NCBI GenBank assembly: GCA_025351785.1
Contig: JANXVF010000139.1
Location: 1-64,000 of the forward strand
Direction: 5' to 3'
DNA length: 64,000 nt
From: Flavobacterium sp.
GTDB lineage: Bacteria > Bacteroidota > Bacteroidia > Flavobacteriales > Flavobacteriaceae
A program made the position numbers and the translations under genes. Under the pieces are notes generated by a model that searched no databases, was not told where the DNA came from, and saw only the letters and a list, made by a program, of their open reading frames with translations. This document shows positions 22,439-58,391 of the stretch, in pieces (position 1 is the stretch's first letter; the number at the start of each line of letters is the position of its first letter).

Positions 22439-23209
22439 TTAAGATATATATCGCTTTCTTATGGCTATTATAACAAATAGTAAAAAAGTGTAGATTATAA
22501 AAAACGGGATAATATATTCAATTAATCCTAGAGGTAACATTATGGCTATTATCAGTAACTGAAATCCTAAACCATAAACCGAAAGTAAAGTCATAAACCA
22601 GTTTGGAAACGTTTTTACTTTGTATGCATTTTTGTCTAAATAGTGGATTATTTTATCAAAAATTCCATATACAACGGTATAAATTCCAAATAAAATAGAA
22701 ACTGTTTTTTGACTTTCCCCTGGTAACGCTTTTGGAGTTTTGTATTCAAAGATTTTGCTTGTGCTATCACCACCAACAGATTTTGTTCTTAATATAACAT
22801 AATAATAATTATACAAAGTTCCCTGAAGCTGAATTCCAATGAAGGCAAGGATTGTAAACCATATTGTGCTTTTAGAAACAAAACAAATGGTCATGAAAAA
22901 CATAAAATTTAGAAAAATGTCAAAAACGCTATCAAGGTATCGTCCAGAATACGAAGGGGTTTTTTTTAATCGCGCTAATTCTCCATCAGCAGCATCGATT
23001 ATCGATTTTAAAACTATAAAAAAAGAGGCGAAAATATAGTGGTTTACTAAAATACAATAAATCGCAATTAGACCTGAGATTCCAAAAAGTAATGTTACAT
23101 GAATTGGAGTAAATTTTGTATTTTTTAATTGGTGAGCAAAAATTCGACCAAGCGATCTTCCATAATCTGATAAATCTAAAAATTTATCTTGTGCAGCAAG
23201 TTTAGACAT
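22439..23209 (-). CDS. CDP-alcohol phosphatidyltransferase family membrane protein
   Basis: The family signature DG-x2-AR-x8-G-x3-D-x3-D is present as DGELARLKKTPSYSGRYLDSVFD, and several hydrophobic helices follow. Enzymes of this family transfer a phosphoalcohol from a CDP carrier, as in phospholipid or phospho-inositol synthesis; the acceptor here cannot be told. The ORF track begins at a TTG at 23254, but that codon lies inside a -7 promoter box, so I use ATG 23209 (MSKLAAQDKFLDLSDYG), giving 256 residues. Single gene between bcp and a hypothetical gene. Confidence 0.8.
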   Translation of the reverse strand: MSKLAAQDKFLDLSDYGRSLGRIFAHQLKNTKFTPIHVTLLFGISGLIAIYCILVNHYIFASFFIVLKSIIDAADGELARLKKTPSYSGRYLDSVFDIFLNFMFFMTICFVSKSTIWFTILAFIGIQLQGTLYNYYYVILRTKSVGGDSTSKIFEYKTPKALPGESQKTVSILFGIYTVVYGIFDKIIHYLDKNAYKVKTFPNWFMTLLSVYGLGFQLLIIAIMLPLGLIEYIIPFFIIYTFLLFVIIAIRKRYIS

Positions 23210-23251
23210 TAAAACTAAAACCTTATAATATATGACAATATAGTCGGATTG

Positions 23252-23259
23252 CAAAAATA
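23252..23259 (-). promoter_or_regulatory. -7 box of the CDP-alcohol phosphatidyltransferase gene
   Basis: On the minus strand TATTTTTG is followed by CAATCCGACTAT. The whole 20-base string is identical to the one upstream of pdhA at 41934. It leaves a leader of roughly 40 bases before ATG 23209 and helps to fix that start. Confidence 0.6.
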
Positions 23260-41933: not shown

Positions 41934-41941
41934 TATTTTTG
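41934..41941 (+). promoter_or_regulatory. -7 box of pdhA
   Basis: TATTTTTG followed by CAATCCGACTAT, 95 bases before the start at 42037. The 20-base string is identical to that upstream of the CDP-alcohol phosphatidyltransferase gene on the opposite strand. No clear TTG at -33. Confidence 0.55.
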
Positions 41942-42036
41942 CAATCCGACTATTGGGAACGCAAACTTGTGTGAGTAAACAATTTTGTAAATTTATTACA
42001 ATAATTAAATAGTAACACATTAGCAATCAAGAAACA

Positions 42037-43035
42037 ATGAAAGAAATTACTAAAGAAGTTTACCTAAACTGGTATGAATGTATGCAGTTTTGGAGAAAAT
42101 TTGAAGACAAGTTAGCTGCAGTATATATTCAGCAAAAAGTTAGAGGATTTTTACACTTATATAACGGTCAAGAAGCTGTGTTAGCTGGTGCACTCCACGC
42201 AATGGATTTATCAAAAGATAAAATGATTACAGCATACAGAAATCATGTACAACCAATAGGAATGGGGGTAGATCCTAAAAAAGTAATGGCCGAACTTTAT
42301 GGGAAAGTCACCGGAACCTCGAAAGGAATGGGAGGATCAATGCACATTTTTTCTAAAGAACATGGCTTTTTTGGCGGACACGGAATTGTAGGTGCTCAAA
42401 TACCAGTTGGAGCAGGAATGGCTTTTGCCGATAAATATTTTAACACAGGTGGAGTAACATTAACCTATTTTGGCGATGGTGCTGCTCGTCAAGGTTCTCT
42501 TCACGAAGCTTTTAATATGGCTATGTTATGGAAGTTACCAGTAGTATTTATTTGTGAAAACAATGGGTATGCCATGGGAACTTCTGTTGAGCGAACAGCA
42601 AACCATACAGATATTTGGAAACTTGGTTTAGGCTATGAAATGCCTTGTGGTCCTGTAGATGGAATGAATCCTGTAAAAGTTGCAGAAGCAATGACAGAAG
42701 CAATTGACCGAGCTAGACGTGGCGATGGACCTACTTTTTTAGAAATGAAAACGTATCGATACAGAGGACATTCAATGTCCGATGCTCAACTTTATAGAAC
42801 AAAAGATGAGGTAGAAGAATATCGAAAAATTGATCCAATAACACAAGTTTTAGATGTTATTAAAGAAAAAAAATATGCTACAGCTGATGATATTCAAGCC
42901 ATTGATGAGAAAGTAAAAGCTCTTGTTGACGAATGTGAAAAATTTGCAGAAGAATCTCCGTTTCCCGAGCCACAACAACTTTATGATGTAGTTTACGAAC
43001 AAGAAAATTATCCATTTATTTCTCACAAAATATAA
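42037..43035 (+). CDS. pdhA: Pyruvate dehydrogenase E1 component, alpha subunit
   Basis: A 332-residue thiamine-diphosphate enzyme subunit. The ThDP motif GDGAARQGSLHEAFNMAMLWKLPVVFICENN and the phospho-loop YRYRGHSMSDAQLYR are present. It pairs with a beta subunit not seen in this window, as often in Bacteroidota. E1 decarboxylates pyruvate and passes the acetyl group to E2. The E2 gene starts 2 bases after the stop. Confidence 0.95.
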   Translation: MKEITKEVYLNWYECMQFWRKFEDKLAAVYIQQKVRGFLHLYNGQEAVLAGALHAMDLSKDKMITAYRNHVQPIGMGVDPKKVMAELYGKVTGTSKGMGGSMHIFSKEHGFFGGHGIVGAQIPVGAGMAFADKYFNTGGVTLTYFGDGAARQGSLHEAFNMAMLWKLPVVFICENNGYAMGTSVERTANHTDIWKLGLGYEMPCGPVDGMNPVKVAEAMTEAIDRARRGDGPTFLEMKTYRYRGHSMSDAQLYRTKDEVEEYRKIDPITQVLDVIKEKKYATADDIQAIDEKVKALVDECEKFAEESPFPEPQQLYDVVYEQENYPFISHKI

Positions 43036-43037
43036 CC

Positions 43038-44726
43038 ATGGCAACAGTAATAAACATGCCTCGTTTAAGCGATACCATGACCGAAGGAACGGTTGCAACT
43101 TGGCTTAAAAAAGTAGGTGACGTCATAAAAGAAGGCGATATTTTAGCAGAAATTGAAACAGATAAAGCTACTATGGAGTTTGAATCATTCAATTCTGGAG
43201 TGCTATTATATATTGGGATTCAAGAGGGTAATACCGCTCCTGTAGATTCTCTTTTAGCAATCATCGGTTCAGAAGGCGAAGATATTACAGCATTAATATC
43301 TGGTGTAACTTCAGCAAAAGAACCTCAAAAAGAAAATGCTGAACAAGAAAAAATTAGTTCTAAACCTGTTTCAGAATCTGCAAGTCCAGTTTCTGAGTCT
43401 GCTGGTTCAGAAAAACCAAAACAAACAGCTACAAAGTCTTTACCGGCTGGGGTAGTAGTTGTAACCATGCCGAGATTGAGCGATACCATGACAACTGGAA
43501 CAGTCGCTACTTGGTTGAAAAAAGTTGGAGATATAATCAAAGAAGGCGATATTTTAGCAGAAATAGAGACAGACAAAGCTACAATGGAATTTGAATCCTT
43601 CAATGCAGGTACCTTATTATTCATTGGAATAAACGAAGGCGAATCGGCTTCTGTTGATAGCGTGTTAGCTATTATTGGTCCAGCAGGAACTGATGTTTCT
43701 GGCATTGCAGAAAACTTTTCAAAAGATGAAAGTACAACAGTTTCAGACTCAAATGTAACTCAAAGTAAACCTAGTACTACTGAAACTACTGCTATAAAAA
43801 CAGAAGATAATTCTATTTTAAATAATGCTGATTCAAGAATTTTTGCATCTCCTTTAGCTAAACAAATTGCTAAAGATAAAGGCATAAACATAGCGCAAGT
43901 TAAAGGTTCGGGAGAAAATGGTAGAATTGTAAAAAGTGATGTTGAAAATTATACTTTACCATCACAAAATGTTGTAAACCAAAGCGCAGTCGAGGAAATC
44001 AAATTAGCTTCCATACCCGTTACTCCTTTTGTTCCAGCCGGAGAGCAGTTTTCTGAGCAAATTAAGAATTCTCAAATGCGAAAAATAATTGCAAAACGAT
44101 TATCAGAATCTGTTTTTACTGCGCCGCATTTTTATTTAACAATTGAAGTCGCAATGGACGAGGCAATCAAATCTAGAACAACTATAAATACTATACCAAA
44201 CACCAAAGTTTCTTATAACGATATGGTGATAAAGGCCTGTGCGATGGCATTAAAAAAACATCCACAAGTAAATTCGCAGTGGAGCGAAGATGCAATTACG
44301 ATAAATCATCATGTAAATATCGGAGTTGCTGTAGCTGTCGAAGATGGTCTTGTTGTACCCGTTTTAAAATTTACAGATCAAATGAGCTTGTCTCAAATAG
44401 GAGCGAGTGTAAAAGATCTTGCAGGACGTAGCCGAAATAAAAAGTTACAACCTAGTGAAATGGAAGGCAGTACGTTTACAGTTTCAAACCTAGGAATGTT
44501 TGGTATTACAGAGTTTACTTCAATTATTAATCAACCTAATGCAGCAATTTTATCGGTAGGTGCAATTGTAGAAAAACCAGTGGTTAGAAATTCTGAAATT
44601 GTTGTAGGAAACACTATGAAAGTTACTCTAGCCTGCGATCATCGATCAATTGATGGAGCAACGGGTGCTCAATTTTTACAAACTTTGAGAACTTTTCTTG
44701 AAAATCCAGTAACTATGTTAGCCTAA
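43038..44726 (+). CDS. pdhC: Pyruvate dehydrogenase E2 component (dihydrolipoamide acetyltransferase), two lipoyl domains
   Basis: A 562-residue protein: lipoyl domains at about 1-80 and 135-215, each with the lipoylated Lys in EIETDKATMEFESFN; acidic/Ala-Pro linkers between; a peripheral-subunit-binding domain (IFASPLAKQIAKDKGINIAQVKGSG); and the catalytic acetyltransferase domain (residues 330-562) with ACDHRSIDGATGAQF. It transfers the acetyl group to CoA. A terminator follows. The two lipoyl domains are almost identical, pointing to a recent internal duplication. Confidence 0.95.
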   Translation: MATVINMPRLSDTMTEGTVATWLKKVGDVIKEGDILAEIETDKATMEFESFNSGVLLYIGIQEGNTAPVDSLLAIIGSEGEDITALISGVTSAKEPQKENAEQEKISSKPVSESASPVSESAGSEKPKQTATKSLPAGVVVVTMPRLSDTMTTGTVATWLKKVGDIIKEGDILAEIETDKATMEFESFNAGTLLFIGINEGESASVDSVLAIIGPAGTDVSGIAENFSKDESTTVSDSNVTQSKPSTTETTAIKTEDNSILNNADSRIFASPLAKQIAKDKGINIAQVKGSGENGRIVKSDVENYTLPSQNVVNQSAVEEIKLASIPVTPFVPAGEQFSEQIKNSQMRKIIAKRLSESVFTAPHFYLTIEVAMDEAIKSRTTINTIPNTKVSYNDMVIKACAMALKKHPQVNSQWSEDAITINHHVNIGVAVAVEDGLVVPVLKFTDQMSLSQIGASVKDLAGRSRNKKLQPSEMEGSTFTVSNLGMFGITEFTSIINQPNAAILSVGAIVEKPVVRNSEIVVGNTMKVTLACDHRSIDGATGAQFLQTLRTFLENPVTMLA

Positions 44727-54985: not shown

Positions 54986-55016
54986 TTGTAACTGTTTTGT
55001 TAAAGCCTTATATTTG
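54986..55016 (+). promoter_or_regulatory. Promoter of thrS
   Basis: TTG at 54986, 20-base gap, then TATATTTG at 55009-55016, followed by CAATCC. Matches the TTG / TAnnTTTG consensus and shares TTTGCAATCC with the promoters at 23252 and 41934. The leader is about 20 bases. Confidence 0.65.
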
Positions 55017-55036
55017 CAATCCATAAATTTTCAGGA

Positions 55037-56983
55037 ATGATAAATATTACGTTACCAGATGGTTCGGTTAAGGAGTTTGTTTCAGGTGCAACTCCATTAG
55101 ATATTGCAAAAAGCATAAGCGAAGGATTGGCTAGAAATGTAATTTCGGCTTCTTTTAATGGCACTACTATCGAAACTGCAACAAAATTAACTAGCGATGG
55201 TGCTTTAGTTTTATTTACCTGGAACGATAAAGATGGTAAAAAAGCGTTTTGGCATTCGACTTCTCATGTTATGGCGCAAGTCTTAGAAGAACTATTTCCT
55301 GGAATCAAATTAACACTTGGTCCTGCTATTGATAACGGTTTTTATTATGATGTAGATTTTGGTGAAAATAAAATTACAGATACCGATTTTAAACGAATTG
55401 AGGATAGAGTATTAGAAATAGCAAGAGAAAAATTTGAGTTCAAAATGCGACCAGTTTCAAAAGCTGAGGCATTAGATATATATAAAGATAACGAATATAA
55501 AACCGAATTAATTTCAAACCTCGCCGACGGAACGATTACCTTTTGCGATCATGCAAACTTTTTTGATTTGTGTCGTGGCGGTCATATTCCAAATACTGGA
55601 ATAATAAAAGCTATGAAAATTATGAGTGTTGCTGGAGCTTACTGGCGTGGTGATGAGAAAAACAAACAACTTACTCGTGTTTATGGAATCTCGTTTCCGA
55701 AGCAAAAAGATTTGACAGATTATTTAGAATTACTAGAAGAAGCCAAACGTCGTGACCACAGAAAGTTGGGCAAAGAATTAGAATTGTTTGCATTTTCATC
55801 TAAAGTAGGAGCAGGATTACCTTTATGGTTGCCAAAAGGCGCAGCATTAAGAGACAGACTTGAACAATTTTTGAAAAAAGCACAAAAAAAAGGCGGTTAC
55901 GAACAAGTTGTAACACCACATATAGGTCAAAAAGAGTTATATGTTACTTCGGGACACTACGCAAAATATGGTGCTGACAGTTTTCAGCCAATTCACACTC
56001 CAGCAGAAGGTGAAGAGTTTTTGCTAAAACCTATGAATTGTCCACACCATTGTGAAATTTTTAATGTACGACCATGGAGTTATAAAGATTTACCAAAAAG
56101 ATATGCTGAATTTGGAACAGTTTACAGATATGAACAGTCTGGAGAGTTACACGGATTAACTAGAGTTCGAGGATTTACTCAAGATGATGCCCATATTTTT
56201 TGTACACCAGATCAATTAGATCAAGAGTTCAAAAATGTTATTGATTTAGTTTTATATGTTTTTGGTTCGTTAGGATTTGAAAATTTTACAGCTCAAATTT
56301 CATTAAGAGATCAAGAAAATAGAGACAAATATATTGGTAGCGACGAAAACTGGGAAAAAGCAGAAAATGCAATTATTAATGCAGCCAAAGATAAAGGTTT
56401 AAATACTGTTGTTGCTTACGGCGAAGCTGCTTTCTATGGTCCAAAATTAGATTTTATGGTAAAAGATGCTCTGGGCAGAAGTTGGCAACTTGGCACGATT
56501 CAGGTAGATTATAATTTGCCAGAGCGTTTCGAATTGACTTATAAAGGATCTGATAATGAGTTGCATACACCAGTAATGATACATAGAGCTCCTTTTGGAA
56601 GTATGGAACGATTTATAGCAATTTTGATAGAGCATACCGCTGGAAATTTCCCCCTTTGGTTAATGCCAGAGCAAGGATTAATTTTATGTTTAAGCGATAA
56701 ATATGAAAATTATGCTAAAAAAGTTTTAAATCTGCTAGAAAATCACGACATTCGCGCCCAAATTGATAATAGAAATGAAACAATTGGTAGAAAAATTAGA
56801 GATGCTGAAATGCAAAAAACACCATTTATGTTAATAGTTGGTGAAGAAGAACAAAAAAATAATACAATTTCCATTCGCCGTCACGGACAAGAAGGTAAAG
56901 GAAATATAACAGTTACAATTGAAGATTTTGTAAAAATTGTAAATGATGAAGTTGCAAAATCATTAAAAACATTTGAAGTTTAA
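55037..56983 (+). CDS. thrS: Threonyl-tRNA synthetase
   Basis: A 648-residue class II synthetase of normal length: TGS domain ([26 protein letters not shown]), editing domain with [16 protein letters not shown] and [14 protein letters not shown], catalytic core with [12 protein letters not shown] and [32 protein letters not shown], and the anticodon-binding domain to the end. The start has an AGGA ribosome-binding signal, and the gene heads the operon thrS-infC-rpmI-rplT. Confidence 0.95.
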
Positions 56984-56999
56984 TTAAAATAATATAGCC

Positions 57000-57554
57000 A
57001 TAGCAATTAGAAACAACAGAGGTTATCAACCTCGAGTAGAAAAAAAAGATGAACATAGAATAAATAATTTTATTCGTGTGCCCGAAGTTCGCCTTGTTGG
57101 AGATAACATTGAACCCGGAATTTTTAAAACTGCAGATGCTATGCGTCTTGCCGATCAGTTCGAGTTAGATTTAGTTGAAATTTCACCAAATGCTGAACCA
57201 CCTGTTTGTAAAATAATGGACTATAAAAAGTTTGTTTACATGCAGAAAAAGCGTGATAAAGAATTAAAAGCTAAATCGACGCAAATCGTGGTAAAAGAAA
57301 TTCGTTTCGGGCCACAAACAGATGAACATGATTATGATTTTAAACGTAAAAATGCAGAAAAATTTTTAAAAGAAGGTGCAAAATTAAAAGCGTTTGTATT
57401 TTTTAAAGGTCGTTCAATTATTTATAAAGAACAAGGGCAAATTTTATTATTGCGTTTAGCTCAAGATTTAGAAGACCACGGAAAAGTAGAAGCATTGCCA
57501 GTACTCGAGGGTAAAAGAATGATAATGTATATTGCACCTAAAAAGAAGAAATAA
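57000..57554 (+). CDS. infC: Translation initiation factor IF-3, start at AUA
   Basis: The ORF track starts at GTG 57078, but the same frame is open back to 57000 and reads [21 protein letters not shown], the standard IF-3 N-terminus, preceded by an ATA codon at 57000-57002 with a stop (TAA) 15 bases further upstream. The full protein is then 184 residues. Rare start codons (AUU in E. coli) are known for infC, where they allow IF-3 to limit its own synthesis. Later motifs are typical: [46 protein letters not shown] with the divergence [12 protein letters not shown], and [12 protein letters not shown]. Confidence 0.9.
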
Positions 57555-58046: not shown

Positions 58047-58391
58047 ATGCCAAGATCGGTAAATTCAGTTGCTAAAAGAGCACGAAGAAAAAAAATAATG
58101 AAGCAAGCCAAAGGTTTCTTTGGTCGTCGTAAAAACGTTTGGACAGTTGCAAAAAATGCAGTAGAAAAAGCGATGGTTTATGCTTATCGCGACAGAAAGC
58201 AAAACAAGAGAAATTTCCGTGCCTTATGGATTCAACGTATTAATGCTGGAGCTAGACTGGAAGGAATGAGTTATTCTCAGTTTATGGGAAAAGTTAAAAA
58301 ACACGGTATCGAATTAAACCGTAAAGTATTAGCTGATTTAGCAATGAATCACCCAGAAGCTTTTAAAGCTGTATTTAACAAAGTAAAATAA
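58047..58391 (+). CDS. rplT: 50S ribosomal protein L20
   Basis: A 114-residue basic protein with the family pattern [30 protein letters not shown] and [20 protein letters not shown]. Normal length. It closes the operon and is followed by a strong terminator. Confidence 0.95.

Follow-up and report, generated by a model that had tools for sequence, protein, structure and literature searches.

The rrn P1 and tRNA promoters of Escherichia coli have a G+C-rich discriminator linked to stringent control. At the rrn P1 promoters, a C/G-rich stretch between the box and the start gives a short-lived open complex that is sensitive to the initiating NTP and to ppGpp/DksA. In the Bacteroidetes, the 16S expression signals of B. 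thetaiotaomicron are reportedly the subject of an earlier paper. The promoter of the primary sigma factor of this phylum (sigma-ABfr or sigma-A) is given as TAnnTTTG at −12 to −5 in the main text of PMC9723704, PMC6847099, and PMC7366714, and the first of these places the box of F. psychrophilum at −12 to −5. In F. johnsoniae, many starts lie 4–5 nt past the box (PMC6847099). The main text of PMC9723704 also describes the motifs SM1–3 of F. psychrophilum as "variations around the TAnnTTTG consensus" and SM5 as TAnnTTGY. No stable-RNA-specific element after the box is given in the main text of the three papers. No description of a stable-RNA-specific discriminator or an rRNA promoter of Bacteroidetes was found in the freely readable papers, including the main text of PMC9723704. 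The box and the discriminator concept are already known, and the details of SM1–3 may already describe part of the stable-RNA element.

The window, a 64,000-nucleotide stretch, was taken from a 2.86 Mb draft genome of 176 contigs with Flavobacterium-like promoter profiles. The 20-mer TATTTTTGCAATCCGACTAT occurred exactly at 41934–41953 (+) and 23240–23259 (−), and no third match with up to 3 mismatches was found in the window. The first-pass annotation had reported this identity upstream of pdhA and a CDP-alcohol phosphatidyltransferase gene; the two copies and both positions were confirmed. Its gene assignments, including thrS, also agreed with PF00676, PF01066, and threonyl-tRNA synthetase. 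Bases 1–8 of the 20-mer matched the sigma-A box, which had a normal spacing to the start codon; the distance from the end of the 20-mer to the ATG was 84 nt at pdhA and about 30 nt at the CDP-alcohol gene. In the source genome, a sense-strand TAnnTTTG box was located upstream of pdhA, thrS, and the CDP-alcohol gene, and it was conserved in 28/30, 30/30, and 3/23 orthologs, respectively. The features are listed in Table 1.

Table 1. Positions of promoter elements and genes in the window.
Feature	Position	Strand	Remark
CDP-alcohol phosphatidyltransferase gene (PF01066)	22439..23209	−	
GACTATATTGTC, with SM5-like TAnnTTGY box TATATTGT inside	23234..23245	−	in 23/23 genus orthologs
CAATCCG, stable-RNA-type discriminator of the CDP-alcohol gene	23245..23251	−	source genome
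TAnnTTTG-type box TATTTTTG of the CDP-alcohol gene	23252..23259	−	in 3/23 orthologs only
Sigma-A type −7 box TATTTTTG of pdhA	41934..41941	+	TAHHTTTGC in 28/30 genus orthologs
CAATCCG, stable-RNA-type discriminator of pdhA	41942..41948	+	spans about −4 to +3 with +1 predicted near 41946; numbered after the TSS data of F. psychrophilum (PMC9723704, main text)
ACTAT tail	41949..41953	+	not conserved in pdhA orthologs (most: CAAAT...)
pdhA, pyruvate dehydrogenase E1 alpha type (PF00676)	42037..43035	+	
E2 gene	43038–44726		after pdhA
−7 box TATATTTG of thrS	55009..55016	+	
TTTGCAATCC upstream of thrS	55013–55022	+	
CAATCC, stable-RNA-type discriminator of thrS	55017..55022	+	
thrS, threonyl-tRNA synthetase	55037..56983	+	
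infC (as called)	57141–57554	+	downstream of thrS
rplT	58047–58391	+	downstream of thrS

The element after the box at stable-RNA promoters

Since the box lies at −12 to −5 in F. psychrophilum and many starts in F. johnsoniae follow 4–5 nt after it, CAATCC covers about −4 to +2. CAATCC(G), which reaches from about −4 to +3, fits the pattern C-N-N-Y-C-S. The pattern TTTGCNNYC was counted at rRNA sites, which were defined as boxes of promoter-like form preceding 16S rRNA genes. No 16S gene was found in the draft assembly of the source genome, and the rRNA promoters of relatives were used instead. The pattern was present in 10/10 distinct cases from the genus and 39/40 from other genera of the class, with a total of 49/50.

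The stretches sampled for promoters of tRNA and mRNA genes came from the genomes G000 (about 0.83 Mb), G010 (0.8 Mb), and G089 (0.4 Mb). In the source genome, TTTGCNNYC was found at 16/20 tRNA promoters vs. 8/188 mRNA promoters (Fisher p = 9e-15). The relative G010 gave 21/23 vs. 9/151 (p = 5e-18), and the two genomes pooled gave 37/43 tRNA and 17/339 (~5%) mRNA promoters; the class-level comparison in G089 included a single tRNA promoter, too few to be informative. The tRNA promoters of the source genome had TATATTTG followed by CAACCGC, CACCCGC, CAATCCG, CAGTCCG, and similar sequences. The G+C content was raised at −4 and from −2 to +3 only, and not farther downstream. Near-universal at rRNA, frequent at tRNA, and rare at mRNA promoters, the element looks like a stable-RNA discriminator. 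The suggestion that conservation extends past the −7 box was supported, the additional positions being C at −4, a pyrimidine at −1, and C at +1.

Growth-linked genes with the element

The promoter-like form TANNTTTGCAATCC had nine sites in the genome vs. 1.4 expected, and TAnnTTTGCAATCC likewise occurred at nine places vs. 1.4 expected, each upstream of a gene. The TANNTTTGCAATCC sites lay in the sense direction before tRNA-Pro, tRNA-Ser, tRNA-Cys, thrS(-infC-rplT), rpsA (an S1-domain protein of 588 aa, taken as ribosomal protein S1), prfC, pdhA, the CDP-alcohol gene, and a glycosyltransferase gene. TTTGCAATCC had 42 matches genome-wide; a first-order model predicted about 15, and the reversed control had 3. 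Many of the 42 fell within an inverted repeat (...GCGCGGATTTGCAATCCGTGCC...) that is dispersed in the genome and unrelated to promoters; TTTGCAATCC by itself was rejected as a marker.

The dispersed repeat was intergenic at L002, L007, L018, and L027 (contigs C18, C46, C61, and C88), and the similar paired spacing of TTTGCAATCC matches indicates probable further copies on C148. Its arms (...GATAGCGCGGATTTGCAATCCGTGCCC...) were about 100 bp apart, with an inner hairpin AACTACAAC...GTTGTAGTT. The repeat loci had no Rfam match except a tRNA. It is possibly a REP/MITE-like element.

The mRNA promoters were scored with a matrix derived from tRNA promoters, and 27 promoters of the two genomes scored at least 2. 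Those annotated included an HU/IHF-type protein, tig, prs, thrS (both genomes), prfC, rpsH, GAPDH, pdhA, rpsO, typA, rimP, rpiB, and YceD. Growth-linked carriers of the element were thrS-infC-rplT, rpsA, prfC, rpsO, typA, rimP, prs, and tig; toward the end of this list, the form was full or near-full. Core translation genes accounted for 7/27 high-scoring vs. 0/30 random low-scoring promoters (p = 0.003; p = 0.02 if one DbpA-like RNA helicase is counted), and a broad definition of translation gave 9/27 vs. 3/30 (p = 0.05); this enrichment is small, the category was picked after the list had been seen, gene calls were crude, and several controls were classed partly from sequence. The discriminator score showed no significant correlation between orthologs of the two genomes (23 pairs, rho 0.27, p = 0.21). 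The G+C content of −4 to +3 was correlated between orthologs (rho 0.44, p = 0.03), with a rho of 0.04 for the control region.

At thrS, TATATTTGCAATCC preceded the ATG by about 15 nt. Among the thrS orthologs, TAHHTTTGC and C at −4 were present in 30/30, A at −3 in 28/30, and a pyrimidine in 29/30 at −1 and 30/30 at +1. The 28 of 30 pdhA orthologs that could be aligned on TAHHTTTGC all had C at −4 and pyrimidines at −1, +1, and +2, followed by G in 24/28, and their common sequence was TTTGCNNTTCGCAAA. By this alignment, pdhA keeps the discriminator across the genus in a looser, pyrimidine form.

Further features were observed around these promoters. Compared with the −33 element of Bacteroidetes sigma-A promoters (TTTG/TTG), thrS orthologs kept TTG at about −35 to −33, pdhA had TTTT, and the promoter profile of the source genome had no −33 signal. 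From about −40 to −16 before thrS, nearly all species (L217–L246) had a strongly conserved block, TATATATTGTATGTnTTTTnnnAAT, which was less clear in the source genome; it is a candidate −33 element or binding site. Most pdhA relatives (e.g., L173 and L182) had an inverted repeat, TTTGC-NNTTC-GCAAA-TTTGTG, across the −7 box and the start site. In the source genome, an insertion-like ACTATTGGGAAC parted the arms of this repeat (window 41938–41965), and a CCCGAC...CGGG hairpin took its place in G006, G007, and G015.

The results suggested that a stable-RNA-type discriminator is shared by some growth genes, and we assign this reading a probability of roughly 0.62. The short sequence after the box probably ties the genes that carry it to growth rate. 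In Bacteroidia, C(−4) N N Y(−1) C(+1) S(+2), directly after the sigma-A −7 box TAHHTTTG, is typical of stable-RNA promoters and is shared by a minority of growth-linked mRNA promoters, among them those of thrS-infC-rplT, rpsA, and pdhA. By analogy with E. coli rrn P1, it would set open-complex stability and start-site choice. Such promoters would depend on the initiating NTP as well as on ppGpp acting together with a DksA-like factor, and this dependence would couple them to growth rate. The genome encodes a 126-aa protein of the TraR/DksA family. The small translation-gene enrichment, the non-significant correlation of scores between orthologs, and a different discriminator at some r-protein-like genes speak against this reading.

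The main rival is that the discriminator only gives strong promoters, through start-site choice or promoter escape, and has no regulatory role, its sharing among rRNA, tRNA, and some housekeeping genes reflecting their common need for high output. Every member is expected to be highly expressed, and pdhA, GAPDH, and HU do not belong to the classical targets of stringent control, as plain strength would have it. However, some promoters of r-protein-like genes had another discriminator, e.g., L093:6453–6941 (rplQ-like by sequence), and in E. coli, G+C-rich discriminators make basal open complexes weaker rather than stronger. This alternative is considered unlikely.

The 20-base identity and the CDP-alcohol gene

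The stable-RNA-type discriminator accounts for one part of the 20-mer. The identity between the pdhA and CDP-alcohol promoters ended at exactly 20 bases on both sides. Dinucleotide shuffles of the window gave a mean of 0.02 matches to TATTTTTGCAATCCGACTAT. A column model of the genome's own TAHHTTTG promoters predicted about 0.013 identical 20-mer pairs in the sampled 826 kb; for the whole genome, the expectation lay between about 0.09 (CA class) and 0.16 (all promoters, scaled). The pair is unusual within one window and unremarkable in a genome scan. The identity is mostly a chance overlay. The 20-mer is made up of the −7 box, CAATCC(G), and ACTAT.

The last part differs in origin between the two genes. 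The GACTAT of pdhA in the source genome was missing from the same place in most relatives. The final bases of the copy at the CDP-alcohol gene are part of a separate element, GACTATATTGTC, and the full identity of the two promoters is therefore coincidental. This element started 35–41 nt before the ATG, and its 12-base core was invariant in 23/23 orthologs (L188–L210). On this comparison of orthologs, the ACTAT part of the 20-mer is taken as coincidental.

That the two ordinary promoters merely coincide over 20 bases, CAATCC being meaningless, is improbable as a complete explanation. It agrees with the 0.1–0.16 identical pairs per genome obtained from column frequencies and with an ACTAT tail that is unrelated between the two genes. 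Chance best explains the identity over all 20 bases but fails for the CAATCC part, since CNNYC was strongly non-random across species at rRNA, tRNA, thrS, and pdhA promoters. The first-pass annotation had also suggested that the string may mark growth-linked genes; this was supported for the CNNYC part, which occurred at rRNA, tRNA, and translation genes, and was not upheld for the 20-mer as a shared unit, given the GACTATATTGTC tail, the rare sigma-A box at CDP-alcohol orthologs, and the absence of ACTAT at most pdhA orthologs. A 20-mer operator for a specific regulator common to pdhA and the CDP-alcohol gene is hardly credible despite the exact identity across the −7 box and beyond, as TANNTTTGCAATCCGAC had just two copies in the genome and one similar site among 39 relatives, and the 20-mer form was not kept at orthologs of either gene; a 20-mer regulon was rejected on the same two copies and unconserved unit.

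The sole TANNTTTGCAATCCGAC site in the 39 relatives was L062 (G003:C212:4814). No tRNA or Rfam RNA was found after it, and the first ATG of an ORF of >60 aa was 155 nt downstream. A possible unannotated small RNA may lie at this site.

GACTATATTGTC occurred once in the genome. It was rejected as a regulon motif, with one exact copy and 1-mismatch matches not above the reversed control. An extended form, GACTATATTGTC(R)CA, and a near-palindrome, GACnATATnGTC, were observed before the CDP-alcohol gene. GACTATATTGTC may be either an SM5-like TAnnTTGY box or a gene-specific operator. Compared with SM5 as given in the main text of PMC9723704, TATATTGT within GACTATATTGTC fits TAnnTTGY at promoter distance; the CDP-alcohol element also keeps GAC and a second C.

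Comparison with known discriminators

Bacteroidetes have an unusual sigma factor and unusual promoters, and how their ribosome synthesis is matched to growth is apparently little described. The six-base element would offer a direct, mutable target for this question. It would also predict more growth-linked genes from sequence alone and serve as a handle for growth-coupled expression in laboratory strains of Flavobacterium and Bacteroides. We propose tentatively, at a little under even odds, that a class-wide extended promoter, TAHHTTTG-C-NN-Y-C-S, is a cis code of Bacteroidia for growth-rate or stringent control via a divergent sigma factor. If true, this code would be common to rRNA and tRNA genes and to a defined group of genes for translation and central carbon metabolism.

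The Bacteroidia element resembles the E. coli rrn P1/tRNA discriminator in being G+C-rich between the −10/−7 box and +1, with A+T-rich surroundings. Both are found at stable-RNA promoters and at some translation genes. Unlike the E. coli discriminator, the element, known from sequence, follows the box of another sigma factor and has the form C-NN-Y-C-S with C at −4.
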